From contig NC_091124.1 of the NCBI RefSeq assembly GCF_040183065.1, forward strand, positions 69,697,001-69,761,000: a stretch of 64,000 nt of DNA, written 5' to 3'. The notes below the pieces were generated by a model. That model worked only from the letters and a program-made list of their open reading frames with translations. It made no database searches and was not told where the DNA came from. The stretch comes from Periplaneta americana. Lineage: Eukaryota; Arthropoda; Insecta; Blattodea; Blattidae. This document shows positions 19,538 to 61,413 of the stretch, piece after piece. How positions within the stretch are numbered: the stretch's first letter is position 1; each line of letters opens with the position of its first letter. The translations under genes and the position numbers were made by a program.

Positions 19538-20146
19538 CAATAAATATAAATGACACTCGGGAGGAAATTAAACACAGAATAAATATGGGAAATGCGTGTT
19601 ATTATTCGGTTGAGAAGCTTTTGTCATCTAGTCTGCTGTCAAAAAATCTGAAAGTTAGAATTTATAAAACAGTTATAATACCGGTTGTTCTGTATGGTTG
19701 TGAAACTTGGACTCTCACTTTGAGAGAGTAACAGAGATTAAGAGTGTTTGAGAATAAGGTTCTTAGGAACATATTTGGGACTAAGAGGGATGAAGTTACA
19801 GGAGAATGGAGAAAGTTACACAACGCAGAGCTGCACACATTGTATTCTTCACCTGACATAATTAGGAACATAAAATCCAGACGTTTGAGATGGGCAGGGC
19901 ATGTAGCACGTATGGGCGAATCCAGAAACGCATATAGAGTGTTAGTTGGGAGGCCGGCGAGAAAAAGACCTTTGGGGAGGCCGAGACGTAGATGGGAAGA
20001 TAATATTAAAATGGATTTAAGGGAGGTGGGATATGATGGTAGAGACTGGATTAATCTTGCTCGGGATAGGAACCAATGGCGGGCTTATGTGAGGGCGGCA
20101 ATGAACCTCCGGGTTCCTTAAAAGCCAATAAGTAAGTAAGTAAGTG
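19538..20146 (+). mobile_element. LINE-A fragment, 5'-truncated, (TAAG)n tail
   Basis: It reads NINDTREEIKHRINMGNACY through GRPRRRWEDNIKMDL and RAAMNLRVP*, with one in-frame stop near 19730. It ends CCAATAAGTAAGTAAGTAAG. Homology to the family begins at AAATATAAATGA, the same point as the 28.2-kb copy. Confidence 0.85.
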
Positions 20147-20149
20147 AGC

Positions 20150-22441
20150 ATTTAATAAACGGCCGAGGATCGCTAGGAATGTAGCAGCAGTGAAACATGT
20201 GGATGGAAGTTGAACTGAATTTAACTGAATTTCGGGAGGGGGCACTACGACCCAGCACTGTGACTTTCGAGATCTATTGCGCTTACCCTCAAGTTAGGCG
20301 CATTTTTTTTTATCTGTATATCGGTTCTTGAATTACTAGTATTTCTACTGCCATTCTCAACATCGTTTTACTATGTTCATCATAATCATTATGACTTTCG
20401 TCACCATAATTATCCATTCCCTCTCCTTGTGTGTTGAGGGTTAGTTCCGTCTCAGCTCGCAACTGACCACCAGGCATATTGTCAATTGTAGGATTCTTTT
20501 CACCATCAGATTCATCAGTTACGTTACCACATGTATTTTTGGTGGTAAAATGGTGATGGAAATGTCATTGCACTTAGGTATAGCAACTTGGTCGTCCTGA
20601 ATCATTTATAAGGCTTCATTTAGTGAAAAACTCCCTATAATAAAATAAGTAAATTACTACCAGTCTCACGAAATGTCCCCTCTTATGACTGACGTACTAC
20701 ATGTAGTACGCCTAACTTTACCATGATATGGCATAACCGTAAATTATAAATTAAGTCTAATTATGCATTATTATATACGAAGTACATGGTACGAGTATGT
20801 CCTATCAATATCAAAAGCATTATATCTATAGCATGTGATATATACTGACCTAGAGAAGAACACGTTCTGCTCCACAGCTATAACTCACACAAATATGTTC
20901 ACTATGACTATGACAATGACAGACTGAACATAAGAAGGAAAAATAGAGGAAATTTATAAATAACATCTAAGGATTACGGTATACCAACTATGAAAATCTT
21001 ACACAACAAAGTTAAAAAAAAAAAAAAAATGTCCGGTGTTCTATATATAGGACGACCAGTCCTATCTGGGTTTTAAATAACAACCAAGAAACTGTAATAT
21101 TTTTCCTAGTTTTAGAGACTTCATCATTTACTCATATGAAGCCAGTTATGTATAGATCAATTTACCGACATTCATGAAAAAAAAAAAAAGTAAAAATAAA
21201 CGTAAACGTGCATAAAAATGTAACAAATACATAGTGGAATTGAAAAGTATTAAAATCTCGTAACAGAGCGATTACAATTGACAAATTGTGAAAAAATTTC
21301 AATTTATTAAATCTGTCGCAGAGAAATTAATTTTCCCGAGTTAAGGAACTACTCCTCTTCTCGAGTTACCATATGAATTTATTACCGTCAAGAATAAGAA
21401 ACCAGAAGAATACAGATTTATAATTGTAACGGAACTTTATTGGAACAGTTCGAGTAGTGTGTACACAATGAAAATAATCCTGTTTTGTTAATATAACTGA
21501 GTAAATTTGGGTACTGGAGTTTATGTACTATGTAAATTCTGATGTCACATTTGGCGAGTTCAAGGCATCGTAAAATTTTAGACATGCCTGCTCTGGCTGG
21601 AGACGGCTGCGACCTTGAAGAGGGAACAGAAAGGAAGTTGCTGAAGTCGGACATGTACAGTAAGCTAATGTAATGTTTTCACTTCAACCGATGCCACCCG
21701 ATACACGCCAGAAGCGTGTGACTTGAGCGCGTCCCAGTGGCTTTGTTTATCACGGGTTCAATGTATGTACACTCTGCATAATACAAAACTGGAACGTCAT
21801 AATGGACGTATTTCTTAAATTAGATAAAAGAAACGTAAAGGCTTCTTGTGAAGAAGGAAAAAAAAACAGTCTTTTAACAATGGAAGGACGTTATCGCCTA
21901 GGGAACCTTGGTTCCAAGATTAATGTTGAATTAATGTTAAATATTAAGTTTTGTATTTTAAACAACCTTGTCATTAAAATAAAACCTTAAAATCTCATAT
22001 ACAATGCGCGATTGCTTCTTGTATAATAGACATGTTCAACCTATGTGTGACGTAACACGCTTTCAGTAATGTTCATCACCAATTTTCCATGCTTTCTCGC
22101 CTACATTGCCCCTCCACCGCAATTGAACAGGTTATTTGAGAAACCCCTCATGTCCAAAATCTTAACATTTTCAGGAGAGATAAAAAACTAAATATTTCCC
22201 ATATGAAAATAATTTTATGGAAATATATATTTTTCCCTTAATTTTACGTTGTAACTAAACTACATGTTTCAAGTTCAAAATTGAGGTTTTAACACAAGTC
22301 AGTTCCTCAGAAAAATTGTTTAAATATTTGGGACATGAAGGCTTTCTCAAATAAAAGATTAAATGTGGGAAGTTATGTCATTATTAATGAAGCAGAATGC
22401 GATAGAAGGTTTTGTATTGTAAAGTATTAATACACGTATTA
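20150..22441. other. No gene seen
   Basis: AT-rich with A-runs at 21010 and 21180. A fragment around 20215-20250 (AATTTCGGGAGGGGGCACTA) recurs inverted near 57080, so a further dispersed repeat is present. Confidence 0.5.
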
Positions 22442-22899: not shown

Positions 22900-24447
22900 T
22901 AGAGTTGAGCTTAAACGATATTTCCAAGTATCTGTGACAACTGTGACTGTGACAATTAAATATCTGTGACTTTTATCTGTGATTTTGTCACACCGATATT
23001 TTGTCACACCGATAAAAATTAACAGGAAATATTGAAGAGCAGTGCAACGTGAATACGAATTCTCTATACACGCCACACATCAGTGGTGTATATGGGAAAA
23101 TGCAACAAATAAGTTATGTACATGTACCATTAACAAATAAATACTAAGCTAACTCAACAGAAACATGTAAAAAGTTAACCTCATATACCAAGAGGTTATA
23201 TCGTAGTCGATTTTAGATATGGAATCAGTTGATAATTTTTTAATGTAGTTGAGTATGGAAAAATTGAGGTTTGTGATTATCCTAATCGTTTTAAAAATTG
23301 ATCCTTTTTATTGTATATAATATAATGGATAAATAATTATTTTAAGTCGTGCATTAACATTATAATATTGAGTCAGAATAAAAATTAACGAAGCATCAGT
23401 ATTTGGAAAAACAATGGAAAATAATTATAACACAAAACTGTTGTTCAGACAAGATTTTACACAAGATAAAGTATTGGTAACCAATGGTATTATTATTTAA
23501 ATCGTATAATCATTATATAATTTATAATAAGATTGTGAAACTAGCGCTGAAGTAGTTTCGGCGAATTCGGATGTGAAAATCGTTGCATTTATAAAGATTT
23601 TTTTTTTTTTTTTTTTTTTTGAGAGACAGTTCCTCGGGTTAAACTAGCGCTGAGGTAGTTTAGGTGATTTCGGAAGTGAAAATCGTTGAATTTGATTTTT
23701 TTGTGGAGATGCAGTTGATCATATATCCAAGGCATAACAAAGCCTAAACTAACCAAACCTAACCTGTCACAGATTCGTATATGCAAGGTGTATATACGGA
23801 GTACGAAGGGAACTACCTCAACGCTAGTTTAATCGTTGATCGTATATGTCTAGGCATAATAAAAGCTTAAACCAACCAAACCTGACCTGTCACAGATTCG
23901 TATATGCAAGGTGTATAAGGGGAATACGAAGGAAACTACCTCAAGGTTAGTTTAGCGAAATAAGTTGTCCATCATATTAGCCAGTTTTGTCTCGTTCGGT
24001 TTTAATTGAGTGGAAAATACTTACACATTAATTTAAATTGACAGTAAGCTTAATGTGAAAATGTGAAGATCTCGGGGGAATACATAAAATATTTATAAAA
24101 CATATATACAGACTAAAATATGAAAACAAAATGTCAGATTCATGATTATATTACTATAATGCCGCTAATAACTTTGCAACACATCATCACTTTGAAAAAA
24201 ATAATATTGAACAAAATATCACGAAAAAATAATCAAATACCACCGCCCGATTGCTGTTATTGTATCATGCGCATGCGCAAACCCACGACGTAGAGGAGAA
24301 AATATCAGTCACAGACGTTGGAACGGTGACAGAGTACTGAATACGGAGCAGATTTCGATAGCGATATTTTGTCACAGATATTTCGCGTCATCAGTCACAG
24401 GTTTATCTGTGACAAAATATCGGTTTGTGAAATATCGGCCATCTCTA
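22900..24447. mobile_element. Non-autonomous hAT-like element, 1548 bp, 8-bp TSD
   Basis: Identical CTTCCTAT flanks both ends (22892-22899, 24448-24455), and the site fits the hAT NTNNNNAN preference. Termini are TAGAGTTGAGC and, inverted, TAGAGATGGCC. Sub-terminal regions are rich in CTGTGAC/GTCACAG steps in both arms, there is a T-run at 23600, and no transposase is visible. Removing the element rejoins a transposase frame ADYFLWGYL, which supports the boundaries. Confidence 0.85.
23723..23955. repeat. Two-copy tandem repeat, about 117 bp each
   Basis: Both copies begin GTTGATC.TATAT and share ACCTGTCACAGATTCGTATA, TGCAAGGTGTATA and AACTACCTCAA. A related motif (AACTAGCGCTGA.GTAGTTT) occurs at 23543 and 23641. 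It lies inside the hAT-like element. Confidence 0.8.
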
Positions 24448-24945
24448 CTTCCTATGGGGTTATCTCAAACGTAGGGTGTATCGCAACAAGCCTCGCACCA
24501 TCATTGAGCTGAAACAAAACATAAGGAACGAAATTAATGCCACCGAATCTGTTTTTGGGGGCGAGTTATGCAGAACTTTCATAGCAGATTGTAGGAATGT
24601 ACTCGTTGCCGTGGAGGCTACTTATGGAATGTAATTTTAAAAAAAGTAATCAAACATTAATAAATTGCACTGTACTAGATTACTTCCAGTAAATGTGTTT
24701 CCTTTCATTTCGTCCCGAGTGCCCCACAACAGGGCTGTAAAAATCGTCATATCCCACTGCCACACCCTATATTTTGATGTCTACAAAAATTATTGGTATC
24801 AGTCAATAATACTGTGAAAAAAAGTTTGTTGATAAGAATTTTCTATTAAATTATCCTTAGGTAAGGTCACATACACAGCACTGTCCAGTTATATCAAATC
24901 ATACAAATGCTACCAACATATAAATATACAACTTTTTAACATTGC

Positions 24946-25532
24946 TTACTTACGGCTTTTAAGGAACCCGGAGGTTCATTTTTGCCCTTACATAAGCCCG
25001 CCATCAGTCCTTATCCTGAGCAAGATTATTCCAGTGTCTACAATCATATCCCACCTCCCTCAAATCCATTTTAATATTATCCTCCCTTCTACATCTCGGC
25101 CTCCCCAAAGTTCTTTTTTCCCTCCGGCCTCCCAACTAACACTCTATATGCAATTCTAGATTCGTCCATACTGCTACATACCCTGCCCATCTCAAACGTT
25201 TGGATTTAATGTTCCTAATTAAGTTAGGTGAAGAATACAATGCGTGCAGTTCTGCGTTGTGTAACATTCTCCATTCTCCTGTAACTTCATCCCTCTTAGC
25301 CCCAAATATTTTCCTAAGCACCTTATTCTCAAACATCCTTAACCTCTGGTCCTCTCTCAAAGTGACAGTCTAAGTTTGACGGCCGTAAAGAACAACCGGT
25401 AATGAATCTGTTTTATAAATTCTAACTTTCAGGTTTTTGAAAGCAGACTGGATGATAAAAGCTTCTCAACCGAATAATAACAGACATTTCCCGTATTTAT
25501 TCTGTGTTTAATTTCCTCCTGAGACTTTTTAG
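24946..25532 (-). mobile_element. LINE-A fragment, inverted
   Basis: The plus strand opens CTTACTTACGGCTTTTAAGG (tail) and the minus strand reads back through the same RT C-terminus with frameshifts. Family homology ends at CTCAGGAGGAAAT, within about a dozen bases of the 5' limit of the two plus-strand copies. Confidence 0.82.
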
Positions 25533-25539
25533 CATTACC

Positions 25540-27288
25540 AACATATAAATATTAAACATTTTCAAAGCTATTCCAAAATCATAGAAAGTGATGTAATTGA
25601 GAAAACCCTCATGTCCTGTATTAGAGGGGTTTCTCAAATATATGCATTTTTCAACAGGCTCTGTATGCTACAAGAATGACTAAACTTGAGGGATTTCTTG
25701 ACCCCTAAAGATATATGATCCGTATATCACAATTTTGAAAAAAAAAAATGGACATGAGGGGTTTCTCAAATAACCTGTTCAATTTTGGCTTTCCTCGTCA
25801 CCCAGTACATCCTGGTTATGATATAAAAGGTCCTACATGGTAAGAAATTTTAATTAACTCTTGCAATGCATCCTGCCTATATCAGGTCCATTTTAATGAC
25901 GTTATATCTTTGCCTAACAACCCTAGCATATTTTGCATACACCTCAAAATTATAGGCTACACTTTACGCCAGTTAACATTTACACATACTGCCTCCAAAA
26001 GAATATTCTTTAAAATTAAGAAGTAATCTTTCATCGGGTCTGCCCAGCACCCAAATTTCGGACCCATGATATGTCAAAACTGGCAGTATTGATATTTTAT
26101 AGAGCATAGTTTTCGTTTTTAGTTTCAGAGTCCGAAATAGCATCTATTAGCCAACACTGTTTTTCTCTTTATCTTACCTGAGGTGTTATTATTCTATAAT
26201 GTTTACTAAAAATCCAAGTAGATTAAGTTTTGAATTACGTCCAAATTGTAGATCTTATAGAGCCGTATTCATAGAAATTTTAGCGAGCTTCCAGTGGATG
26301 ATCAGCGTTTTTCGTATTCATAAACCAGTGTAGCGATATGATATGATTTGAATTCTGTACAAGCCGGGGCTAGCTTAGTACGCTCGTAGCGCGTGCTGCA
26401 AAATGTCTATGAATAGCACCCATAGATTCTAATAGGAGTTTGGCCGATATTGCTATTTCTATAGCGTATTATTGATGCAATTACGTTTATTTTCTGTTCA
26501 CCTATTGTTAGGCCCATATTTATAGCTGCTTTTCCTACGGCAATAAATGTTTCCTTACTTTTAGTAGAGTACAGAAGATTATAACATTAACATTATCAGT
26601 ATATATCTTTGTTAATTTATAAAATATGGTGTCCATGTTATCTAAGCGTCGATTCGTCAGTCAGTGTTAAATGCAGAGTGTCCTGTAACCTTTTAGCTCA
26701 GACAAGTCTGGAATTTAACTCTAAACTTGTGATATAAGACGCGTTTCTGTTCTGTTTGCTACAGTAGTCACAGAATATCTCCGAGCCTGACACAGTTATG
26801 GTAACAATGTCGCCAGATTTGCGGGAGGAAGGGACGGGTGTGGCGCTCACTGTCAGACTCAATTACTTCACTATAATAGAGCAATATATACAGAGTGTTT
26901 CAGAATTCAATCGAAGAAATTTATCTGATTATAGAGGGATTGCACGGTGGTTCAAATCACGAATAATCTAGCGGGACAAAAATAATTTTGGTCACTCTTG
27001 AAGAAGTAAGTAAAAATGGTTCAATATTACTCCAAACATATCGCCCTATCACGATTCAGTCTTAAAGCAAGAGTAGTATAAAATAATACTGTGTGACAGA
27101 ACCTCAAAGTTGAATGTTTAGACGCTGACTTCGCGTCTGGAGTCAGACTATTATTGTCATTGTGAGATTAGTTAGTAGCTGCAAGGGAAGTGTGAACAAG
27201 AGGAAGCTCCCACTCGTACTGGACTTCAAAGATAAAATTATATTTAACTTTTTGGTATAATAATTATACATATACTGAGAGCTGTGCA
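25540..27288. other. No gene seen apart from MITE-B
   Basis: No supportable coding sequence. Phrases such as GACATGAGGGGTTTCTCAAA at 25753 recur near 22140 and 25610, hinting at an old dispersed repeat. Confidence 0.5.
26260..26421 (+). mobile_element. MITE-B copy 2 (162 bp)
   Basis: It has the same ends and body as the 9.1-kb copy with small deletions. It is flanked by ATA on both sides, so a 3-bp TSD of PIF/Harbinger type is possible but weak. Confidence 0.8.
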
Positions 27289-28044: not shown

Positions 28045-28156
28045 GAGCTGTGTGTCTGTAATATTAACTAAATTCGTTAGGGGAAAAATTCAGTTATTAC
28101 ATTGTAGACCCTACTATTAATTTTTATTCTAAAACTTTAAATAGACTTTTAAAAAT

Positions 28157-28738
28157 ATATATAAATGACACTCAGGAGGAAATTAAACGCAGAATAAATA
28201 TGGGAAATGCCTGTTATTATTCGGTTGAGAAGCTTTTGTCATCTAGTCTGCTGTCAAAAAATCTGAAAGTTAGAATTTATAAAATAGTTATATTACCGGT
28301 TGTTCTATATGGTTGTGAAGCTTGGACTCTCACTTTGAGAGAGGAACATAGATTAAGGGTGTTTGAGAATAAGGTTCTTAGGAAAATATTTGGGGCTAAG
28401 AGGGATGAAGTTACAGGAGAATGGAGAAAGTTACACAATGCAGAGCTGCACGCATTGTATTCTTCACCTGACATAATTAGGAACATTAAATCCAGACGAT
28501 TGAGATGGGCAGGGCATGTAGCACGTATGGGCGAATCCAGAAATGCATATAGAGTGTTGGTTGGGAGGCCGGCGGGAAAAAGACCTTTGGGGAGGCCGAG
28601 ACGTAGATGGGAAGATATTAAAATGGATTTGAGGGAGGTGGGATTAATCTTGCTCAGGATAGGGATCAATGGCGGGCTTATGTGAGGGCGGCAATGAACC
28701 TCCGGGTTCCTTAAATGCCAATAAGTAAGTAAGTAAGT
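28157..28738 (+). mobile_element. LINE-A fragment, (TAAG)n tail
   Basis: It reads MGNACYYSVEKLLSSSLLSK, ILPVVLYGCEAWTL, RWAGHVARMGESRNAYRVLV and GRPRRRWED, with a small deletion before LREVG that shifts frame. The tail is CCAATAAGTAAGTAAGTAAG. It shares its 5' limit with the 19.5-kb copy. Confidence 0.85.
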
Positions 28739-30082: not shown

Positions 30083-32235
30083 GTATGGAACTCTGACATT
30101 TGAAATAAATCTAAGAAAAGAAATTCAAGTATATACAGAGTGTTGCAGGGGCGACAGGTCAGTATTCTGGGAGATCATAATATGTCCTTTTTAAGAAGTT
30201 CATATGAATATGTGGTCTATACCGTCTGTTGTAGAGATAGAAAAAACTCTTTGAATGTAAAAGTTACAAATTAAATTTTTTTTTTCATGTTATTTGTCGT
30301 TCAAGTGGCTAAGATTTTACAATACATTCTCAAAAATCCCATCCCATCAAATACATTTTCCAGTTTACTAAAGATTATTTTTTTGGTTCTACAGAATGTA
30401 TCTGTTACGGTAACAATTAATATTAGAGGAGAAAAATTCGCTCCGGCACCGGAGATCGAACCTGGGTCCTTGGTTCCATTTACCAAGCGCTGTCACCATT
30501 GAGCTATGCCGAAGTCCAATCCACAGCACCGGATCGAAAAAAAAAAAAAGTTTTAGTAAATTTTTCTAGCAACAGTGCATATTTCTGTACAGATTACTGT
30601 GTACATTACTGTGGGATCCCGGCTACCAAGTCACTCAACCGAGTGACTTAATAAAATGTCAACATACATGCCCAACTTGGAGTCAGGCTACAAAGAGAAA
30701 AACACTGGAGGAGGGGAGTTCGATCTGGTGCTGTGGATTGGACTTCGGCATAGCTCAATGATGATAGCGCTTGGTATGTAGAACCAAGGACCCGGGTTCG
30801 ATCCCCGGCGCCGGATCGAATTTTTCTCCTCTAATATTAATTGTTACATTTTCCAACTCGTGCGAGATGACATGTTTGCTCATCAAAGATCATCGTTGCA
30901 TTCCTACATGCCAACAGCATCTATTATGAAAATGAGCAGTTCATCTCATGAATAATTTCGAGGGAAAAATTGTTTCGGGACCAGGTATCGAACCCGGGAC
31001 CTTTGGTTTAACGTACCAACACTCTACCAACTGAGCTACCCGGGAACTCTACCAGACACCAATCCAATTTTTCCCCCTATATCCACAGAACTCAAAGTGG
31101 GCTGACAACCGTCAAGCAACCAACATTAAGTGCACACTAACTCTGTGTGACTTAAATTGTGGTTTTCTGTTAACGAACAGTGACGTGTATTATGCAAATC
31201 AAGCTTTCAGGTATAACTCCCTGTAAAGTTGATTTGAATAATTTCGAAGAAAAAATTCTTTTGGTGCCGGGTATCGAACCCGGGACCTTTGGTTTAACAT
31301 ACCGACGCTCTACCAACTGAGCTACCCGGGAACTCTACCAGACACACACAGATATATATCCAAAAGCTAACAGTTATTCTACAGCAGCGGACCTATACTA
31401 CGCTATATGACTTTGCCAGAAGGGGGTGAACACATGAATATGCACTATGGAATTACATAATCAATTTGAAAGGTTGGCACTTCTACTAATATGATTTTGC
31501 TCTTATAAAAATCAACATTTAAATATGATATACATGTTAGAACATATTAACGGTTTATATTGAGATTCTTCCTTCATCCATAATCCGTCCAGTGAACTGC
31601 AATAAAAGTCCTGTGGTACTGAAATATTTGTGGAAAGCCATTATAACAAATATATAGAGTCATAACTCTCGAAAGAATAACACTGTGTCCAACATGATGG
31701 CTGATGTAGCAAATCATATTTCAAAGAAGTATTTTCCGTAAAAAGTAGTTTTTTAATCAGTTTTATAAGAGACATATTCACAATGTTGAACAAACAAGCA
31801 AGGAATAACTGACCATCAAACATCTAGTGTGGCTATGTGATCACGGTGTATCTTAACTAGGTGACAATCGAACAACTAGGTGATAAGCAAGCTTCCTTCA
31901 GTGTGGCCATAGTCTTAGGTTTAACTCTCTTTTACAAAGACAGAAAATTATGAGCTTCTTGTTTCATATGATGTCACAGGCATAAGAATTTCCTAACATA
32001 AGCAACTTTATGCAAACATGAATGAGATAAATCAAAAGATATAATCCATCAAGCAGCAGTGGTGGTGTTTTTTCTTTATAAAAATAAATTTCGTATTCTT
32101 CTAAGTTTATTACTGTCAATTATGTTTTATCACCTTATTTCTCTCCATTTTCAGAATACACAGAGACCAAAACCTGCTCCAAAAGCAGCCCCTCCTAAAA
32201 CTGCAGCTGCAAGTGGCACATCTTGGTTGTGGTAA
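29731..32235 (+). CDS. Unrecognised Lys/Pro/Ala-rich basic protein, 130 residues, two coding exons
   Basis: Exon a is 29731-30082 with an acceptor (TTATTTACAG) and 40 nt of 5' UTR, an in-frame stop before the ATG at 29771, and donor AAG|GTATGG. Exon b is 32155-32235 with acceptor CCATTTTCAG and stop TAA at 32233. Both junctions are phase 0, giving 104 + 26 residues. The protein is strongly basic, dominated by K, P, A, T and S, with many KPAP/PKP steps, an eight-Thr run (about residues 83-92, ETTTTTTTTK) and a C-terminal SGTSWLW. It has no signal peptide, membrane segment or recognisable domain. Composition resembles histone-H1 tails, protamine-like or PEVK-like linkers, but no function is claimed. 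An AATAAA lies at 32589-32594. At least one non-coding 5' exon must lie upstream. Confidence 0.6.
30420..30535 (-). mobile_element. SINE-3 unit (inverted member)
   Basis: The minus strand reads GACTTCGGCATAGCTCAATG (A box) and CCCAGGTTCGATCTCCGG (B box). It is the mirror of the unit 190 bp downstream, giving an inverted pair within the Lys/Pro-rich gene's intron. Confidence 0.75.
30722..30845 (+). mobile_element. SINE-3 unit (direct member)
   Basis: GGACTTCGGCATAGCTCAAT and CCCGGGTTCGATCCCCGGCG show intact-looking A and B boxes. It ends in TTTTTCTCCTCTAATATTAA, which also borders the inverted partner. Confidence 0.75.
30955..31068 (-). mobile_element. SINE-4 tRNA-like unit 1
   Basis: The minus strand reads CCCGGGTAGCTCAGTTGGTA then GAGTGTTGGTACGTTAAACC and CCCGGGTTCGATACCTGG. 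D-arm, anticodon-stem and T-arm are recognisable (possible anticodon GTT), but the acceptor ends do not pair and position 33 is C, so it is not a functional tRNA. Confidence 0.75.
31245..31348 (-). mobile_element. SINE-4 tRNA-like unit 2
   Basis: Nearly the same as unit 1: CCCGGGTAGCTCAGTTGGTA, GAGCGTCGGTATGTTAAACC and CCCGGGTTCGATACCCGG. Position 33 is T and the apparent anticodon is GTT, but the acceptor stem is unpaired. Confidence 0.75.
32155..32235 (+). CDS. Lys/Pro-rich gene, exon b (last 26 residues)
   Basis: After a polypyrimidine tract and CAG, the frame reads NTQRPKPAPKAAPPKTAAAS then GTSWLW and TAA. It has the same Lys/Pro/Ala composition and the same phase as exon a, which is the main reason the two are joined across 2.07 kb. 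Confidence 0.6.
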   Translation, partial: NTQRPKPAPKAAPPKTAAASGTSWLW

Positions 32236-35623: not shown

Positions 35624-35852
35624 TATTTATTTACGACGCTGTATCAACATCTCAGGTTATTTAGCATCTGAATGAAATGAAGGTGATAATGCTGGTGAAA
35701 TGAGTCCAGGGTCCAGCACCGAAAGTTAGCATTTGCTCCTATTGGGTTGAGGGAAAACCCCAGAAAAAAACCTCAACCAGGTAACTTGCCCCGACCAGGA
35801 TTCGAACCCAGGCCACCTAGTTTCGCGGCCAGACATGCAGACCGTTACTCCA
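35624..35852 (-). mobile_element. SINE-1 copy 2
   Basis: Same family inverted. The 12-bp TSD is GACTGGCATGTT (35612-35623, 35853-35864). The B box reads GGATTCGAACC on the plus strand. Confidence 0.9.
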
Positions 35853-36915: not shown

Positions 36916-37130
36916 AAATAACATATTATGTGTAAATATAATGTAATAACAATCTGGCGGCAACATTCAGTTTACTTATAGGCCATGATTGTCTCAATAA
37001 ATATTTACACAGAATTGGTATTGCAGAATCCCTTACATGCCCTTTCTATCTTAATGAAGATATGGATCAAGATCGTCTACTTCACTATCCATCTTTACTC
37101 ATTTTTGCAGTCCAGTCTTGTAGTGTAAGA

Positions 37131-38217
37131 GAGTGAATGACATTGTCATCTGCTCAACACTGGATACTCGTACCAATCAACCACCAACATTTTCGTTTTT
37201 GTGTTATCAGAAGATCTTCTCAGCTTTTTCTTGTGTGACTTGCCATTAAGGTCATATGTTATCTGGATAGGTCACGAGCCTATTGCAGGGTAAGTCCATC
37301 ATTGAGGTTGCTACTTTGTGCCTCTGAACTTGAATGTTTTCTGTATGGGTATGTTTCTTTAGACGACAGGTTCCAGTTTTGAGGTACTGGAAACACTTGT
37401 GCCCTCTCGTATCTGCTATTGTATTAAAAGATACTACACTATTCAGAAGTCACAATATGGATGTAGGCGTACATTCAGAAACAGACCTGCTATGTTCTTG
37501 CAGATGGCTTTTCTCAAAACTTTCAGGATACATTTATCCCTTGAAGCCATGTTGATATTTGATCAAATGAAAGAAGCCAAGGAAGACCTATGAAACAACT
37601 TGGAAAAATGAGAGCAGAACAGGTTAGCAGGTGGCCTAATTCCAGGAAAGCTACATGATGGTAGTGGTGGTGGTAGTCATGGTGGCAGTAGTAGTAGTCC
37701 GAGTGTATCATCTACAGGAGTTACTTATACAAATGTACTTTCTCCAAGCACCTACAGTATATCCAACTAAGAAATGTGCCATTTTATCAATGTGTGTGCA
37801 ATACAATAGTCCAGAGTACTTCAAATGTAAGTGAGCGAGCTTAAAATGTCAACACGATTACCCAAGTCTGCAGCAAATTATCACAAAAATGACAATTTCA
37901 CTTGCAAGTTGCCAAAATTTTTACAGTGAAGCTTTGATTATCGACAACCATAATTTTTTCAGGATCATGTATTAATGTAATGTATTTCTATTACTTCTAC
38001 ATCAATTCATATAAGTAACAGTTTTGAATCATGTTTATTGCATATTAGTTTCATTGCTTTCAGTGATCATAAAGTAAATTTTTTGTTTAATTACAAGCTT
38101 TTTGTTACTGTACGTGATCATGGGAGTCTCTACTGTTTCTAGGGCGATGTACTTGTGATATACGCATCTAAGAGTATCATTATCATTCTCATCCTTCTTC
38201 CTCTTATAGTGTCCTCC
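37131..38217. other. No gene seen
   Basis: Short overlapping ORFs at 37334-37593 in two frames and GGTGGT/TAGTAG runs near 37665 only. Confidence 0.45.
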
Positions 38218-38352
38218 TTTCGAAAGCTGTTCAGTCAACCGTCCAAAGACTGGTTCGAACCTCATAAGTGTCACCGATGAGGCACCACTCATGAGGCAAC
38301 TAAGCCAGGAGATAATGAGGGTAGGGTGGCCAGTTCCTTTCCCCCCTCCAAT
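38218..38352. repeat. Dispersed repeat R, uninterrupted copy
   Basis: GTCCAAAGACTGGTTCGAAC, CTCATAAGTGTCACCGATGA and GCAACTAAGCCAGGAGATAA run continuously. The same pieces are split at 15780-15830 and 17328-17420 by the 1.37-kb element. Confidence 0.75.
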
Positions 38353-38875
38353 TGTCCATATTGAGCAGAAATGTTGAACACTTCGTTTGATAGTATGAGA
38401 TCTCATAGGAAAAAATGCAACATTTTTGTGTCAACTGTTAAGCATTATACTGAATTATATTTGTAGGATTACATTTAGTGCACGTTTTTCGTTGTATTTA
38501 CTTATCTTTCTACAAATATATACAAATGAGAGTAACCATTGTATTCCCCTTTACCCTTCATACATCCATGAACTTATTCCTTTTCTGTGTGTATGGTTAA
38601 AATTATTATCAATTATACAATATCCATAAGATTAACGTCTGTGGGACTGTGATACCAAGGTACAAGAAGGAAATTTTAACACTTCCTACATTTAGATATT
38701 AGAGGGGTCACTGAGGATTAGATCAGCCAAGCCATTTGGGGATTCTTTTACTATTATAGGATATCACTTAATTTTCGTACAGTTTAACAAACGATGATGT
38801 CACAACATGGCCGACTTAAAATGCGACAAGTAAATAAAACTATCTAAAAACCATTAATTGCACACAATTTCGCGA

Positions 38876-38985
38876 AATCCCATTCTGGAACAGAATTCAT
38901 CTGCTCTTATTGAAAAAAGGATATCACCAAAACAATTCAACAATATCCCATTCTGGAACAGAATCAATCCGCTCTTATTGAAAAT
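38876..38985. repeat. Direct repeat, about 65-bp period, two copies
   Basis: ATCCCATTCTGGAACAGAAT followed by a TC.GCTCTTATTGAAAA stretch occurs at about 38877 and 38944, immediately before the minisatellite. Confidence 0.75.
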
Positions 38986-39078
38986 ACAATATCAACACAA
39001 TCCCATAGGCGAAATTTCGGCATCTCCCCACACTATACACAGGAGAGAAAATGCACTTCAATCATTGAATTCACAGTA

Positions 39079-41010
39079 TTCGGCTTCACATCACTCAGAT
39101 ATCCCCCTCAACTAACCCACTAATCTTGTCACATACCTCGTCCTCATGTCACTCAGATATCCTCCTCAACTAGAACTAACCCACTAACCTTGTCACATAC
39201 CTCGGCCTCATGTCACTCAGATATCCTCCTCAACTAGAACTAACCCACTAACCTTGTCACATACCTCGTCCTCATGTCATTCAGATATTCCCTCAACTAA
39301 CCCACTAACCTTGTCACATACCTCGGCCTCATGTCACTCAGATATCCGCCTCAACTAACCCACTAACCTTGTCACATACCTCGGCCTCATGTCACTCAGA
39401 TATTCCCTCAACTACCCACTAACCTGGTCACATACCTCGGCCTCATGTCACTCAGATATCCGCCTCAACTAACCCACTAACCTTGTCACATACCTCGGCC
39501 TCATGTCACTCAGATATTCCCTCAACTAACCCACTAAACTTGTCACATATCTCGGCCTCGTGTCACTCAGATATACCCCTCAACTAACCCACTAACCTTG
39601 TCACATACCTCGGCCTCATGTCACTCAGATATCCGCCTCAACTAACCCACTAACCTTGTCACATACCTCAGCCTCATGTCACTCAGATATACCCCTCAAC
39701 TAACCCACTAACCTTGTCACATACCTCGGCCTCATGTCACTCAGATATACCCCTCAACTAACCCACTAACCTTGTCACATACCTCGGCCTCATGTCACTC
39801 AGATATCCGCCTCAACTAACCCACTAACCTTGTCACATACCTCGGCCTCATGTCACTCAGATATTCCCTCAACTAACCCACTAACCTTGTCACATACCTC
39901 GGCCTCATGTCACTCAGATATCTGCCTCAACTAACCCACTAACCTTGTCACATACCTCGGCCTCATGTCACTCAGATATTCCCTCAACTAACCCACTAAC
40001 CTTGTCACATACCTCGGCCTCATGTCACTCAGATATCCGCCTCAACTAACCTTGTCACATACCTCGGCCTCATGTCACTCAGATATTCCCTCAACTAACC
40101 CACTAACCTTGTCACATACCTCGGCCTCATGTCACTCAGATATTCCCTCAACTAACTCACTAACCTTGTCACATACCTCAGCCTCATGTCACTCAGATAT
40201 CTGCCTCAACTAACCCACTAACCTTGTCACATACCTTGGCCTCATGTCACTCAGATATTCCCTCAACTAACCCACTAACCTTGTCACATACCTCGGCCTC
40301 ATGTCACTCAGATATCCGCCTCAACTAACCCACTAACCTTGTCACATACCTTGGCCTCATGTCACTCAGATATTCCCTCAACTAACCCACTAACCTTGTC
40401 ACATACCTCGGCCTCATGTCACTCAGATATCCGCCTCAACTAACCCACTAACCTTGTCACATACCTTGGCCTCATGTCACTCAGATATTCCCTCAACTAA
40501 CTCACTAACCTTGTCACATACCTCGGCCTCATGTCACTCAGATATCTGCCTCAACTAACCCACTAACCTTGTCACATACCTTGGCCTCATGTCACTCAGA
40601 TATTCCCTGAACTAACCTTGTCACATACCTCGGCCTCATGTCACTCAGATATTTCCTGAACTAACCCACTAACCTTGTCACATACCTCGGCCTCATGTCA
40701 CTCAGATATTTCCTGAACTAACCCACTAACCTTGTCACATACCTCGGCCTCATGTCACTCAGATATACCCTTCAACTAACCCACTAACCTTATCACATAC
40801 CTCGGCCTCATGTCACTCAGATATCCGCCTCAACTAACCCACTAACCTCGTCACATACCTCGGCCTCACATCACTCAGATATCCCCTCAACTAACCCACT
40901 AACCTTGTCAGATACCTCGGCCTCGTCACTCAGATATCCCCTCAACTAACCCACTAACCTTGTCACATACCTCGGCCTCATGTCACTCAGATATCCCCTC
41001 ATTTAACCCA
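39079..41010. repeat. Minisatellite, roughly 32 units of 57-60 bp
   Basis: The unit reads CTCAACTAACCCACTAACCT, TGTCACATACCTCGGCCTCA and TGTCACTCAGATAT, plus a short variable joint. Joints alternate over much of the array between CCGCC/CTGCC and TCCC types. Some units lack the CCCACTAA segment (near 40047, 40610). Edges decay at both ends. Apparent ORFs in it are by-products of the periodicity. Confidence 0.95.
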
Positions 41011-41330
41011 TATCTAATTAGCAGTCCATAACTAGTCCTCGTACAAATTTAAAACCCAAATTAAACACAAATAAGAAGAAACAACGAATAAATCCACATA
41101 CACGCTCAACATAGGTACATAAATACCAAGAAAAATACCAGGCACATCCATGTACATCATAAAACGATTCAGAATTGGAATCAGAATCCAATGTTCACTC
41201 CTTCACGTATCTCCACTCAGACCAGCAATGGAATCCACAAGCAAGCAAGTAAACAATAAATAAAGTAATTTCAAATGCAAGAAACAAAATAACAACTTAC
41301 CATCAACACACTTCATAATATAGTGGTGTA

Positions 41331-41545
41331 TTTTTTATTAGGTTATTTTACGATGCTGTATCAACATCTAAGGTTATTTAGCGTCTGAATGAGATGAAGG
41401 TGATAATGACTGTGAAATGAGTCCAGGGTCCAGCACCGAACGTTACCCAGCATTTGCTCATATTGGGTTGAGGGAAAACCCTGGAAGAAACAACCAGGTA
41501 ACTACCCTGACCAGGATTCGAACCCGGGCCACCTGGTATCACGGC
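41331..41545 (-). mobile_element. SINE-1 copy 3
   Basis: Same family inverted. The 12-bp TSD is TATAGTGGTGTA (41319-41330, 41546-41557). Its tRNA-like head is truncated relative to copy 1. Confidence 0.9.
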
Positions 41546-42379
41546 TATAGTGGTGTATAATTTAAATTATGTACAATAATACCAACTGACAATAAAAATT
41601 ACACATGCACCAACCTAACCACCAGAATTCACAGCCATCTATACAGCTTCCCGCAAATACAAAAAAAAGGTAATCACACTAACCGATGACATCAATCTTG
41701 ACCAGCCATTCTCCAATCTAGCCAACATAAATTCTCATAAACACACTACAGATATCCTATAGTCATATAGACCCGCCATTTGTACCTGAAGGTATGAACT
41801 AAATGTGAAAGTTACAAAAGGATGTTGAGATGTGTGCTTACAGCATCAGTTTTCGAATTTCAAAGTGCATAGATCCCATAACCTATATATAGCCTAAATC
41901 CCATCAGCTCCTATCAAAAAGACTTTCACAAGAAATATACTTATTCACAAACGGGTATGTTTTAATTGTCTGCTGTTTGATATTTTTGGCAGAAAATGAG
42001 GGAGATCTAAATTATATGCTCAGAAAACTACATGAATATAAAAATTGAGGATTACTTAAGAATTAATATAGCAAAAAAAACCGATTGTCTTGTCTAGCTA
42101 TCGGGAATGAAACAATGGATATACTTCTTGCAGAAGATTTGTTGAGGGGTACATTCACATAATTATCTCGAAGTTATATTTAATAAAAATTGCATGAGTA
42201 ATTTAGAAATTAGGCCTAAGAAAAGAACAGACCTAGAAAAATAAATATGGAACAGTTACATTCAGTAATATGGAATAAAATAATAAACCAAATTAAGAAT
42301 TTATAAAACAATATTAGAAAGTATAGCAACTTATGAGAAGTTTGGGAGACTATTGAACAAAACAAACGAAAATTAAGTA

Positions 42380-42660
42380 TGAAACAATTAAGAGAATGAA
42401 TGGATATAAACTCTTCAATTATTGATAAAATAGAAACAAAAAAAGCTGAGATGGTACAGAATTGTACAAGAAAAGGGGGAAGATCAATGACCAAAGAAAC
42501 TGATGGAATGGCATCCTACACAACGAAGAAGGAGAGTACCATGACAAACTTAGTTGGATGGCATAACAACAGCCATGAATGATAACCTTCAAGACAGAGA
42601 CTGGCAGGACCGCCAACTTTGGAAACTGGGATGCAAGAAACGATCTAGTGTTGTATAAAT
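42380..42660 (+). mobile_element. LINE RT C-terminal fragment
   Basis: Reading with frame changes gives KLKWYRIVQEKGE, PKKLMEWHPTQRRRRVP, LDGITTAMNDN and DRDWQDRQLWKLGCKKR. This matches the terminal RT segment of RTE-like insect LINEs (GRPR..W.DGI..AM..R...DWQDR..W). It is fragmentary and inactive. Confidence 0.65.
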
Positions 42661-44400
42661 TTGCATTTAATAATAAATTAAAAAAAAAAATGTTATCAAA
42701 ACATTATGACGATAAAGATTCATAATTTAAAAGAACTTCGATATATCAGCTATGGTACAGATACTCTTTTGAAAAGTATAAATATAATATTTCTCTTCTG
42801 ATATTTAGTTTGTTAGTAACACAACATTCCTACCACTACCATCAGTACTTATTAATTACTATACCACCACCACTATCAACAACAGTAGCATCATCATAAT
42901 CATTTCCACAAGTCTGACAGCTCCACTTTCCATAAAGTAACGCTTTTTGTAACATGTATCTATTATATATTATTTGTTCTAATAAAAAAACTTCAATCTT
43001 GAAATATTTTTATTTCAATATGCAGGAAATATTTCTATACAAAATGCATGTTTCCAGCACACAATTTATAAATTGGGTGCAAAATATGGCGTTATGCATG
43101 ATGAGTCTATGTTGTGAGAACACATATGATACAAACACGTGATAATTAAATCATCAGTTCATTACAAGAAAATTACTACTGCATTATTAGGTCTGCATCA
43201 CAATCCAACACCCACATAGTCATGGTCCATCCTGAGATCTTAATGCAGAAGTGATTGCACTGCACAAGTAAGTATTTTATTTACAGGAATCTAAGAGAAG
43301 AAGATATCAAAGTTACTTTATAATTTCGTAAGTCACAAAGAGCAATAAAGAAAAGGAATCAGAAGGGAGGAAAGAAGTACAATTAGTGACAGGAAGGATA
43401 TCCGATATTTTCAGACCTGTCTTCGGACAGTTGACAAACAACAACAATACTGTTACTGCAGAATGAGAAAGATGCAAAAGGTTGTAATCTTGTTTAAGTC
43501 TTTTGATTGCGACCCTAACATAATTACTGATTAAAGTGACACTTTCTGCTCTTAGCTTCAGTTCAGAATATTAATTACATACATATTTAACGGAAGTTGA
43601 AAATTTAAATTAAGCACAAAAAAATTACAAGATTTATGTCCATTTAATATTACACTTACATATAATTAAAAAAGGAAAGGGGGAGGACACTAAAATAGAT
43701 CTGTGAAACTACTGAACAGTGAAAAAATTCTTTAAATCTGAGGATGTGCTAATAATAATCAATCAATTAGAATTATCAAGTAACAGTTGAATACATAAAG
43801 AACTTCCATACGCTAATTTCAACTTCATTCCTCTCAGAGAGTTTCAGCATGTATTTAATCATCATCATCATCCTTCACGAGATTTAGACCCAGTGGTCTG
43901 TTTCAGCTAACAAATGAAAGTATGTACGTATCTAATGCTGAAGAGTTAACAGTGAAGTTATTCTCTTTCTTGTTTCCCAATATTTGGAGGCGATATCTTG
44001 AAACTTGAAAGTCATCTGTCAAAGGTTTTAATGTGTAAATTATAATTTCATGACAAATGATTAGAAACTGAAAACAAACGTGAGAGAAGTTTTAGTAGAA
44101 TATCAAATATGCAATGCAAATATGGAGATGCTAATGCCATTCTTCACGAACTTCACAAGGTATATGATATGAAGATACAAGAAAATAATGTTCGTGAATT
44201 TCTTTTCTATCCACAGTGGGTACTTTTATTCTCACAATGAACAATAGAACCCTCTTAGGATGAACATTCTGGGATTTGAACTCTAGCCTCCAATATGAAA
44301 AGCTAATGTTCTTTTAGGCTGACAATATATCATGTATACGAATGAAAGGACCAGGTTTTATGCAAGTAACAGGAAATGAAAGAAATATACTGAGAGACTT
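42661..44400. other. No gene seen
   Basis: AT-rich DNA beyond the RNPS1 3' end. A TTTCAGACCTGTCTTCGGAC phrase at 43410 resembles part of repeat R. Confidence 0.5.
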
Positions 44401-47900: not shown

Positions 47901-50900
47901 TATAATTAGTCACACTGATCTAATTTGTTGGGAATAGAAAATCTGATATTAAATTTCATCACACTCACCTAGGTGGAGAACGTCCCCATCGAGGAGGAGG
48001 CCTTCGCATAGGCATAGGTGGACTACGTCGAGGTGGCACTGGTCTTGGTTTAGGCAAAAGTACAGGAGCTGCTGTGATTTCCTGCCCATCAATCTGACCT
48101 GTAAAATAAATGCATAAGATATATAAGATATACTATATTACAATGACTTTCGTGGGAGAAAGAAGAGCAGCTGTAGATAGAGGGAGAAGTAGTGTGTTTG
48201 AGTTTTTCTTTAAATAAAAATACAAATTTGTCTACATATCCCTATCTCAGAGAAGAGTGACAAATCATAGCAACACTACTAAAATTAAGCTCTAGGTCTT
48301 CCTTTTGTTCCATTCCTCTTTTCTGCTAGATGGGTAATATATTTTCAGACGGTGGTAATATGTGGTAGAATGATTTACTTCTGATGATAGGATAACTTTC
48401 GAGGATGATGACTAACATAGTGACCAATAAGAATACGGTGGTTATATAAGGTGAGGAAAACATGGGTGACAGCAGAGATACCAGTGGACTGGAGGAAGGG
48501 AATGATAATACCTATACATAAGAAAGGGAACAGGAATGAATGTAAGAAATACAGAGGGATTACACTAATGTGTCATTATTCTAAAACTTATGCAAGACTG
48601 ATAAAGAGAAAGAGCCAAAGGATACAAGATAGTCCACACCTGTGGAGTAACGGTCAGCGCATCTGGCCGCGAAACCAGGTGGCCCGGGTTCGATTCCCAG
48701 TCTGGGCAAGTTACCTGGTTGAGATTTTCTCCGGGGTTTTTTCTCAACCCAATATGAGCAAATAATGCTGGGTAACTTTCGGTGCTGGACCCCGGACTCA
48801 TTTCACTGGCATTATCACCTTCATCTCATTCAGACGCTAAATAACCGAAGATGTTGATAAAGTGTCATAAAATAACCTACTAAAAAAAAAAAATACAAGA
48901 TCAGATGACTAATAGTGCAGGAAGTTCGTCGGAGATTGCTTCGATGGGTAATATTCAAAAGCAAACTACAGAGAACAATACTGCGTAATAATATACTGCT
49001 AAACTTCGTATATGTGAAATATAATAAACCGTTTTTCATTGTTTTTTTTTTTTTAATTCCATTTATTCTATTCCACAGATCTTACATTAGAACTGAAACT
49101 TTAAGATGTGGTACAAGTCAAAATTTTACAATATTACAATATTTTGGCGAGATGAAGTTGTAAGAAGTGTGCAATAAGAAATTAAAGAGTCTAGTGCAAA
49201 TACAAAATGACAAAGATAATAACTATCATAACTGACGAGTCTATTTTTGCTGAATTTTTTCTCACTACACTACCCTTGCTATAACCTTATAAACAGTCTC
49301 CAGATATTTCAATGGAGCAATTCAGCCTTGCAGTCTGCTAATAGGTTCGCTGGTGCTGCAGTGCTATGGCAAACATGACTGTTGCACTGTTGAGATGTTA
49401 AATTTAACAGTCCACCAACAGAGCATCTCCAATAGCCAATCTTTTATGTTCTGCAGGAAATATTACGAATAAAATATGTGTACATAAATGGTATACTAGC
49501 CACCGGCATAGCTCAGTTGGCTGAGGTGTTTGTCTGCTGATCCGGAATTGCACTTGGGCATGGGTTCGATTCCTGCTTGAGTTGATTACCTGGTTGAGTT
49601 TTTTCTGAAGTTTTCCTCAATGGTAAGATGAATGTCAGGTAATCTATGACGAATTCTTGGCTTCATCTTACTAAATTCCATCTCACCAATGCCATTGATG
49701 CTAAATAACTGATATTTGATACGGCATCACTAAATAATCAACTAAAAAAAATGGTATATTAACATCCAACTCCTAGTAAAATACTATCATATGTCGAAAA
49801 TCATTATTTATTATTACAGCAATTTTACTAGGAAATAGTGTATCTTTACAGACCACAATTTTTGAGTTACAACATCATTTTACTGGAAGTGCGACATGTT
49901 GTTTGCTAATGCTCCGGATTTTGGGTTTCTTCCATTTTTCATCTGGATTTTAGTTACTGCTTGACAATGTAGCAGATGTTCTCCAGTCATTATAGTATCT
50001 GGTTGTTTTCAGATGGTGCAATGGGGGATGAGATGTGTTCAATCTGTGAAAATGTGCAATCATGTCCAGTAGTTAATCAAAATAATGCTACAGCTTTTCT
50101 TCGTGAAAAATCAGGAATCAAATTTTTATTTTCACAAATGGTTCTCCATTTTCTTCAGCACTGTTGTTTTTAAATTCTTCGTTTTTTTTATTATATGTTT
50201 CACTTATAATGTGGAAGAATGATACGTCATATACTTGGTTCTTAATTGTTCTTTGCTAAAATATTGGCTTGTTCATTTCCTTTAATACCAATATGGGATA
50301 GTATCCATTGAAAATTTTGGTATATTAACATAACAGCATCAAATTCATTAATCTAGAATGTTATGCCGAAGTTGTAAGATACTTTCTGACCTTACATGCT
50401 TTCGTTATTGCAGTAAGTGAAGTAAAATGTAGTCAATTTGTTAACTAATTAATATTATGAAAAAAGAAATTAATATCCATACATTACTGACTATTGTATA
50501 AGTTTGCATTTAATAGATTTCTTTTTCAGTTATGGTGTTCTAGAAGTGAATGTTAACTATTTAATGTTTGAAATATCTATTTAATATTTGCACTGGTTGC
50601 AGTCTTAGTCTCACGTCATAGCTGAGTTGTCTAAGGTGTCTTGCCTTAGGCTAGCATTATGGAATGAGAATTGGTTAGTGCATTTATGGGGAAAGAAATT
50701 TTGTCATGAAATTTCGGCTATTGCATGAGATTAGTCTTACGTCATAGCTGAGTTATCTAGGGTATCTTGCCTTAGGCTAGCATTATGAAATGAGAGTTGG
50801 TTAGTGCATTCACAAGGAAAGAAATTTTCTCATGAGACTGATATTCACTCATCAATACGATAAATTTTGGATGCTACAGAAAGTAGTGAAATCCGATTTT

Positions 50901-53900: not shown

Positions 53901-56900
53901 ACTGTGAGATGAACTGGAGCCACTCGATGACCGAGAACTGCTGTCAGATGAACTAGAAGTGAAAGAATAAAATAGATCTCAAAATCATTCGTACAATTTC
54001 TAACTCAACATTCTTTATTTGTAATGTTATCATAAGATTTATTACATTTACAAATAAGTCATGAAATAAAACATGAATATCGCTAAATTACATTTTCTCA
54101 CTTGGTAATACACCTATTACGTGGCAATATAAGTTACACTCCCTACTGGGAGCATTGTATGTAGCTATTATTCCGTCTCTCTTTTGATATACATCAAAAG
54201 CAAACTTCACCAGTACAGACACAGAACTGTAGGATTTAAGTAGATGAGTGATAGATTTAGAAAAGTTTTGAAGTGTAGAAAAAAACAAAACTGTCATAAA
54301 ATAGGCTATAATACCATATTTACTCGCAAATAAGATCCCATTGCACATAACAGGAGTTCTCAAACAGTATGTCGCAATGCATCTTTACATTTAAAAGAAT
54401 ACAAGCTAGTAATATAAATGACTATTTCCTTTCAAAAAAATACCACCAAATTGAAATTTTAATTTTCGGTATAGAGGCATCACACAGAAAATGTGACATG
54501 TGACATGTGCAGGGCAATGCGGTCTCAAAAGGTTTCAGCATATTCCGAATCTCACTGGACCGGTGGACAGCAATGACGTCACACTGCGGCGAAATAGGAA
54601 CAAAACTGCTGGAAGCTATCATGGCGGCTGTACAAGTTGTTGTCTGTGCTACGCTAGCAACATTTTGCTAAATTAAGAGAGCATAAACAATTCATTTCTT
54701 GAACCAGTAGTAATATCTGTCCGTTGACACGTTCACTCATAAGTCATTAACATTTTGTTTTTAAGTTGAGCTCATTACAAACAATACAGCAGAACTAAAG
54801 CAGAACACACCGACATGACACAACAGTGCACGATGTCATTCGTCTGCTAATTCCCGCCCTATACAAGAACCAATCAGATTCAATGATGGCGGCTGATGGA
54901 GACTGCCACCACCTCTGCAAGCTGATGGAACCAGTGCGACACCAGTGGAGCATCAGTGATGTCATCGTTGAAATCCGGAACACCGTGATGCCATCAGATT
55001 GCTCATTGCTGAGATTCGGAATACGCTCTTTGAGAGCTCCCCTAATTTTTTGAAGAGGAGGAAAGAAAATATTTAGCCTTGTGTATTGGATGCAAGATTA
55101 CTGTAACTCCAAAGGCAGTAAGTTAGAGAAGTTTATATAAAGCTGCATTTCTTGTATCTGCTGAAAGGCCAGTGAAGGTAACTCACTCTCCCCTGTTCCA
55201 AAGCCACCCATACTAGTGATAGTCAATCAATCGCACTGTTCCTAGTTCATTATGAAGTGTTCCACCACTTATTTCACGTGCTAATAGCCTAATCACTTTT
55301 AGATTACCTAAACCGATCAATTCTTTCTAGTAACCTATACTTTCAAGTCAACTGACATCCTATATGAATTCTTCACATTCCAAACTATCTTCCTAATGAA
55401 AATTTGAACATTTTCCCAATTATTTCGTCAAAAAAAAAAAAAAACCTTAAGTGTCGCCTGCTATAGAAAACAGAAGCTAATTTTAAAGATACGATGGAAA
55501 AGTATGATTCATATCACTTATATAATCCCCTCAACTAACCTACTAATCTTGTTACATACGTTCTTTATGAGTTAATGGGTTAACTGCGGGGATAACTAAG
55601 TGACATTAAGCCGAGGTATGCGGCGAGGTTAGTGGGTTAGTTGAGGGGATTATTTAAGTGATATGACATCCTACCTTTCCATCGTATCTTTAGAATTACT
55701 ATAATTTATTAACCTATGAACACTGTAATTACCCAAAAAGGACTATTTCCAGAACAATGTTAGCTCATTGAATTCAAGGCAGCAATATGTTCAATATAGA
55801 TATCGGAGAAACTTAGATGCATTATTTCACTACCGGTAGGTACAGTAATGCTCAACTTACAATTGTGTAACAACCGGCATAAAAGCCGAACCCACTATCC
55901 AGGTTTGTAAGACCAAAACTGTTAGAATCATAAACATAAATTTCCACTATACTAAAAACATGCATACCTTCGACTACTACTACCACTTCCACTGGAAGTA
56001 GATGCACTTCGTTTTTTCTTTTCCCTGCCTCTCTCTTTTTTATTCTCTTTATCCGAAGCGTCCGAATCAGAGTCGCTTTTCGCATTGCTGTTTTCGCGAC
56101 GATTGCGGGCCCTGAAACAAACATGTCATGTACATTTTTATGGTCATACTGAAACGGTAACACAATATTGCAAAGTATATATACATCACTACAATTTTAA
56201 AAAGCATATAACCATAAAATATTAATTATTATACCACTCACATCTTTTTCTTCACTTCAGCTTCGGACGGCATGGAACCGGAAATAATACAAGCATAGGA
56301 ATATTAGTCAATTTAGTTTCCATATTAACAAAAAGTACCACAAATATTTTCCATTTCATCATATTCGCTATAGAAAGATTATTCATATATAACTTTTAAT
56401 TACTAACATGAAAATCATTAGTTTACAGAGACAATGGTAAATTAATGAAACTGTAATCACAAAACAAACATTGCGCGGGATATTTAAAAGTATATACTCT
56501 ACAGTCCAAGAGGACTATAAAATCTTGAAACAGTTGTCGTTGACGTTCATCTTTCTAATGGTTTGTAAAGGCTTTGAGTGAGTTTTATGGTATTACTACT
56601 CATTAATAAACTATTCACACAATCTATGTATTTTTAATTACAAAAAACTGACATAACCAACTGCACTATTCTTCATACAATATAAATATGGTACACTAAA
56701 AAGTGTGATGTACTCGCTTACACTTATAACATCTATAGCGATTATCCCCGCATTCGGCTTATCACGCAGGCGACCTGAGCTCGAGTCCCGGTCTCGTCTG
56801 GGATCTTTCATGTGGAAAATCTATAGTGACAGTTTTGGCGGACGAGGTCGCAGTTGGAGTTTTCCTTGTCCTTCCATTTCCCCATATTAGGCATCTACTG

Positions 56901-61168: not shown

Positions 61169-61413
61169 TAATTGAGGGCTTTGCTGGAAGAAAGGCGGAT
61201 AGACCTATACGCCCTTCTTCGGGAAAACGGTTTAAAATGTAGTGAATAATTATAGTAGCGAAATTTTTTTTTGATTGTACTGTACATACCTGCAGGACAG
61301 GGCTGCGTGCGTGTATAACATTTTAATCAAGTGCGTTTTAAAATCTTAGATTGCATGTATCTCAATTCGCCATATTGACGTATACGCCCTTCTTCCGGCA
61401 AACCCCTCAATTA
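61169..61413. mobile_element. MITE-E: 245-bp inverted-terminal element
   Basis: Ends TAATTGAGGGCTTTGCTGGA and, inverted from the right, TAATTGAGGGGTTTGCCGGA continue into AGAAGGGCGTATA. No coding content. Confidence 0.78.

Follow-up and report, generated by a model that had tools for sequence, protein, structure and literature searches.

Evidence for common descent of a 58-bp minisatellite array and a 221-bp hairpin element in the genome of Periplaneta americana

A minisatellite array of Periplaneta americana and the head-to-tail pair of repeat units (here called b and c) carried by a hairpin element of the same window (the whole 64-kb stretch of DNA analysed here) are homologous, with an identical unit junction and an identical period. 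Common descent of the array and of the element as a whole is well supported by comparison of their sequences. With respect to direction, a path from the element to the array is somewhat favoured, mainly by precedents from other organisms, in addition to weak internal signs.

Organization of the array and of the hairpin element

The tandem array of head-to-tail units that a first-pass annotation had placed at 39079..41010 was confirmed, at 39080–41010 and with a period of 58 (table 1). Tandem Repeats Finder returned this period with 33.7 copies and 91% matches, and also called the array with a 115-bp unit (16.8 copies, 92% matches). Cutting at a fuzzy anchor yielded 34 anchors, corresponding to 33 full units of 49–64 bp, mostly 57 or 58 bp, and a partial last one. 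The mean pairwise identity among the 33 full units is 90.8%, and the array consists of many homogenised head-to-tail units, as expected of satellite-like DNA. CTAACC-like motifs are abundant in the unit, and the array is richer in G+C (47.6%) than the window (36.0%) or the hairpin element (35.7%).

Within units 4–26, the identity between units two positions apart (lag 2, 0.954) exceeds that between neighbours (lag 1, 0.926), and none of 500 permutations of the unit order gave a difference as large. The corresponding values for units 1–33 are 0.927 and 0.912, a difference matched by 4 of 500 permutations. By taking into account that the identities at lags 4, 6 and 8 (0.939, 0.934 and 0.931) are not above those at lags 3, 5 and 7 (0.934, 0.940 and 0.940), the local excess at lag 2 is taken as a sign of unequal exchange, rather than of a strict higher-order repeat. 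Besides the units of the hairpin element, no further copy or array of the 58-bp unit was found in the 64-kb window. Exact-pattern scans of a viral (two patterns) and a prokaryotic (one pattern) sequence collection gave 0 matches, a result of little weight for an insect-like repeat, and three short strings of the array repeat and of the terminal inverted repeat (TIR) of the element had no occurrence in the literature searched.

The 221-bp inverted-repeat element that had been annotated at 55478–55698 was also verified, by the match with its own reverse complement (77.9% identity across 226 columns) and by its fold as DNA, a hairpin of −61.9 kcal/mol (z, −13.95) equalled in stability by none of 200 shuffles. 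Its initial description as a single palindrome is incomplete: the right arm contains approximately 1.66 head-to-tail units and the left arm one. The stem is formed by an outer part of 31 bp at 90% complementarity and an inner part of 51 bp at 86%, the latter corresponding to the opposed units a and b, and the loop (55560–55615, 56 nt) is mostly unit c (38 nt or fewer). The element includes one forward unit (a), which is the single unit of the left arm, and two reverse units (b and c), of which c is partial. Taken together, the two reverse units are a direct dimer whose phase and period match those of the array. Their similarity was also detected in a direct comparison that makes no use of the array (score, 32; shuffle maximum, 25), with none of 2000 shuffles reaching the score.

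The short length and the terminal inverted repeats of the 221-bp element are those of a MITE. One copy of it is present in the 64-kb window, where exact matches to the TIR motif are confined to its two termini; a scan that tolerated up to 3 mismatches gave 5 matches versus 3.3 expected. The exact ends of the element are uncertain because several symmetric boundaries, namely 5 of the 20 considered, carry a possible short target-site duplication (TA, AT, AATT, TA and AT). All of these are palindromic, and so may be due to chance or be part of the inverted repeat.

Table 1. Coordinates of the array, of the hairpin element and of their parts within the window.
Feature	Position	Strand	Remarks
Minisatellite array	39080..41010	+	57/58-bp unit, 33 full units and partial ends
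Array units 4–26	39272..40586	+	units two apart more alike than neighbours; local 115-bp register
Last, partial array unit	40978..41010	+	nearest of 34 to element unit c
221-bp hairpin (MITE/foldback-like) element	55478..55698	none	exact ends uncertain
Left outer stem (TIR)	55478..55508	+	90% complementary to 55668–55698
Unit a, single array-like unit of the left arm	55509..55559	+	
Unit c, partial, directly behind b (head-to-tail)	55571..55606	−	coordinates from alignment
Unit b, array-like, right arm, inverted with respect to a	55610..55666	−	coordinates from alignment; stem pairing 55616–55666
Right outer stem (TIR)	55668..55698	−	

Homology of the array with the arms of the element

The two arms were aligned to three copies of the array consensus, with 300 shuffles per arm. 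A score of 65 was obtained for the left arm, where no shuffle exceeded 20, and of 115 for the right arm, where none exceeded 27; the best score in the rest of the window, divided into 500-base pieces, was 32, at a position near 23.7 kb. The match of the right arm extends for 96 contiguous columns, and covers approximately 1.66 consecutive head-to-tail array units, crossing the unit junction. When units a, b and c were taken separately, scores of 65, 77 and 42 were obtained against the array consensus (shuffle maxima, 26, 30 and 28, respectively), with 0 of 2000 shuffles reaching the score in each case. A chance or low-complexity likeness between unrelated C/A-rich repeats might be considered given that the CTAACC-like motifs of the unit also yield the top background score, but the shuffle tests on the arms and on the three units refute it, and its probability is negligible. 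The background match near 23.7 kb, considered as a possible related repeat, is a 30-column CCTAAACTAACC-type stretch, and was taken for a low-complexity resemblance.

The homology of the array unit with an arm of the element, as proposed in the first-pass annotation, is therefore upheld by the shuffles, but it does not cover the outer approximately 31 bp (the TIRs). The accompanying proposal, that half a transposon had been tandemly amplified, was correct in pointing to common descent, and too simple in that the element already holds the b–c dimer. Since an independent duplication with identical breakpoints is unlikely, one tandem duplication is most simply common to the array and to the dimer, and would predate the split between array and element.

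Direction of descent and precedents

The reading that we prefer, and to which we give an even chance, is that the dimer expanded in a relative of the present element to form the array, the ends being lost later, and that the element is a foldback-type MITE. With these assumptions, the 55.5-kb element would be non-autonomous, with subterminal arms built of the approximately 58-bp unit, the left arm having one copy, and the right arm and loop sharing a head-to-tail pair made of b and the partial c. A single tandem duplication would underlie both the array and the b–c pair; in a related element, unequal exchange would have amplified the pair into the 1.9-kb array, and the TIRs flanking it would have been subsequently lost or left behind. 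By analogy with other elements, the 58-bp unit may serve the element itself, for example as extra transposase-binding sites. A narrower version, in which the two loci, 14 kb apart, would record the early birth of a satellite from a foldback-type MITE, with an asymmetric arm duplicated once and a monomer from the b–c junction brought to approximately 34 copies, is offered only tentatively.

The right-arm match through the unit junction and the direct repetition of b and c support expansion of the dimer, and the excess of identity at lag 2 supports unequal exchange as its route. Under an origin of the array from the dimer, the array monomer is expected to correspond to the segment spanning the b–c junction, that is, the 3' part of b followed by the 5' part of c. 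This was evaluated against the array consensus of units 2–33, with column boundaries chosen on the alignment and with exclusion of the last 22 columns of unit c (16 of which differ, with no clear homology). The 3' part of b differs from the consensus at 0 of 17 and 4 of 19 columns, and the 5' part of c at 3 of 21. For the outer parts, the differences are 5 of 22 columns (5' part of b) and 4 of 17 (3' part of c). Overall, the inner and outer divergence (7/57 versus 9/39) differs in the direction predicted if the monomer had been cut from the b–c junction, as a trend in the aligned sequences that is not significant (Fisher p = 0.18). The nearness of the 3' part of b and of the 5' part of c to the consensus was counted in favour of dimer expansion. 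The same applies to two post hoc observations on the terminal units of the array: among the 34 units, a is matched best by the first (45/59, as against 44/59 for the runner-up), and c by the last (39/61, as against 37/61), which was cut at 58 bases and so extends into the flank.

A closer inspection of the array edges yielded signs on direction that are weak and mixed. In its 3' columns, the last unit differs from c at 5 of 17 positions and from the array consensus at 6 of 17, and alignments anchored at this unit scored 12.5 with c (1 of 500 shuffles as high) and 10.0 with the consensus (10 of 500). Beyond the last shared point, the similarity of the right flank to the centre of the element is at the level of chance (214 of 500 shuffles). 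The best fit to the left edge is that of the array consensus, with a score of 9.0 (1 of 300 shuffles), followed by c (6.0; 10 of 300), a (5.5; 39 of 300) and b (4.5; 55 of 300). No significant match to the TIRs of the element (outer approximately 31 bp) was detected in the array flanks at 38700–39079 and 41011–41330, and scanning the window for the TIR motif likewise gave no TIR at or near the array edges. A single 9-mer is the sole direct repeat of at least 9 bp that spans the array within 500 bp. The non-significant Fisher test, the chance-level right flank, the consensus-like left edge and the flanks devoid of TIRs were counted against dimer expansion. Also counted against it are the nearness of b to the array, rather than to a, in the 3' part (see below), the last unit being hardly nearer to c than to the consensus, and the fact that the evidence comes from one element copy and one array.

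Published cases of repeats that lie inside elements and became arrays were counted for dimer expansion. The closest of these are Tetris, Xstir and miDNA4. In Drosophila virilis, the arms of Tetris contain tandem copies of TIR-220, which also occurs as long arrays (PMC4079207). The authors of that study suggested that the TIR-220 repeats began as a partial duplication of the terminal domain, and that such repeats may provide further sites for transposase binding, as in Galileo (PMC4079207). The likeness lies in an inverted-repeat element with tandem repeats in its arms, long head-to-tail arrays and a variable number of units. However, the unit is approximately 220 bp in Tetris and 58 bp here, where the entire element is merely 221 bp; target-site duplications of 8–10 bp are described for Tetris and none is certain here; and amplification within the element is reported for Tetris, whereas the present array is without element ends. 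Direct repeats inside inverted arms, typical of a Tetris-like system, are confined here to one side of the hairpin, with b and c occupying the right arm and loop, and the sole array of the window is neither contained in nor fused to a copy of the element, as Tetris-like kilobase arrays would be.

Xstir/Xmix of Xenopus, according to published accounts, comprise a MITE and a tandem array of a common sequence (PMC12628747, PMC9659126), a sharing that is also observed here, but MITE–array composites are reported there and none is present in this window. The same accounts present miDNA4 of Xenopus tropicalis as a Tc1/mariner MITE with an internal satellite, and tell the direction differently, as capture of a pre-existing repeat (PMC12628747) or as an origin of the monomer inside the MITE itself (PMC9659126). 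As far as these accounts go, miDNA4 resembles the present case for the presence of one or more satellite units in a MITE and of arrays lacking element ends, and differs from it in that the units form the hairpin stem and loop here. It should be noted that Tetris, Xstir/Xmix and miDNA4 are likened to the array and element by description, not by sequence. BrickBuilt of Porphyromonas gingivalis, as summarized in its report, is a bacterial MITE with an internal minisatellite (PMC4596501), and shares with our element the location of a minisatellite within a small inverted-repeat element. The differences are its bacterial origin, the 23-nt unit and the inverted-repeat ends of its array, which are missing here. 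For coral MITEs, full-sized copies in tandem arrays have been described (PMC2872659). A relation of this kind between small transposons and satellite-like DNA is therefore already known, and the present one looks like another case. The route from element to array having been described in several organisms, the gain would be one more example with a readable intermediate. If the direction is confirmed, the present pair of loci would offer a compact example of a carrier element that still shows in its interior the dimer from which an array was seeded, with a bearing on how mobile elements start tandem arrays.

The reverse direction, in which an older minisatellite gave the MITE one or two units that were kept as subterminal repeats, is less probable in our estimate than expansion of the dimer. 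It has a precedent in the proposal, reported for miDNA4, that the ancestral MITE captured a pre-existing tandem repeat (PMC12628747), and it agrees with the lack of a TIR adjoining the array and with the best fit of the array consensus at its left edge; moreover, capture of two adjacent units would also yield an array-like b–c junction. Across the 3' part, unit b differs from the array at 4 of 36 columns but from its stem partner a at 11 of 36, which indicates that the arms of the element are not simple twins; this nearness of b to the array speaks for capture, and is in fact compatible with both directions. For the 5' part, unit c shows fewer differences from the array (3 of 21) than from a or b (6 of 22 each). 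There, however, a and b differ from each other at 1 of 22 columns and from the array at 5 of 22 each, so that they share states beside the TIRs that are absent from the array, and capture would need a later change common to both arms. That no further array or unit copy was found in the window also weighs against a minisatellite as the source.

A third reading, which we regard as slightly less probable still, sees in the two loci separate remnants of a foldback or autonomous transposon of larger size, the MITE being a deletion derivative and the array a leftover of a long arm. The unequal number of units in the arms (one versus approximately 1.7) would fit, as it resembles the variable arm repeats of Tetris. 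However, the inverted matches to the array that lie outside it within 37000–43500 are short, namely 17 nt at 42138–42154 (82–88%), which does not extend on reading, and 14 nt at 41384–41397 (93%), which sits in a dispersed repeat, and no transposase domain was found in the 7 of 25 frames scanned. With only these short matches in that interval, the array as the interior of a larger inverted element was rejected.

Other repeats and coding matches of the window

Several other repeats were noted in the window. Near the left end of the array, a 69-bp direct duplication (81%) is found at 38864–39000, a region where the unit consensus has no match. On the other side, at approximately 320 bp from the array, begins one copy of a dispersed repeat family with members at 13158–13410, 35630–35852, 41331–41545 and 48632–48889 (204–258 columns, 85–91% identity).

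Seven of the 25 stop-to-stop frames of at least 110 aa were scanned against Pfam, leading to the identification of a reverse transcriptase in one (PF00078, E 1.4e-34) and of an RNA-recognition motif in one (PF00076, E 7.6e-16), the other five being without a match at E 0.001. Fragments of a repeat family occur in both orientations at 904–1105, 1682–2207, 19539–20145, 24942–25523 and 28154–28738. We take these fragments to belong to a non-LTR retrotransposon; the single frame of this family that was scanned gave no Pfam match. A recurrent retrotransposon-like fragment of the window presumably resembles those common in cockroaches and termites.

The region at 30410–31345 includes a 129-bp inverted pair (92%) and a 111-bp direct pair (91%), together with three tRNA matches above the Rfam gathering score, and its repeats may be tRNA-derived SINEs. 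At 23535–23954 a composite arrangement was observed: a 56-nt sequence is present in two direct copies (88%, spacing 103), and behind it a 93-nt sequence is likewise present in two direct copies (89%, spacing 123). Inverted matches of 20–22 nt (AAACTAGCGCTGAGGTAGTT-like) join the one pair of copies to the other, and the whole may be a second inverted element whose arms were duplicated. Short inverted-repeat pairs of 32, 23 and 33 nt (88–91%), located at 22132–22354, 25594–25772 and 61169–61413, respectively, have TTATTTGAG or TAATTGAG at their outer ends, and possibly represent related MITE families. Finally, a 126-bp unit is repeated in 1.8 copies, with 89% matches, at 50605–50835.
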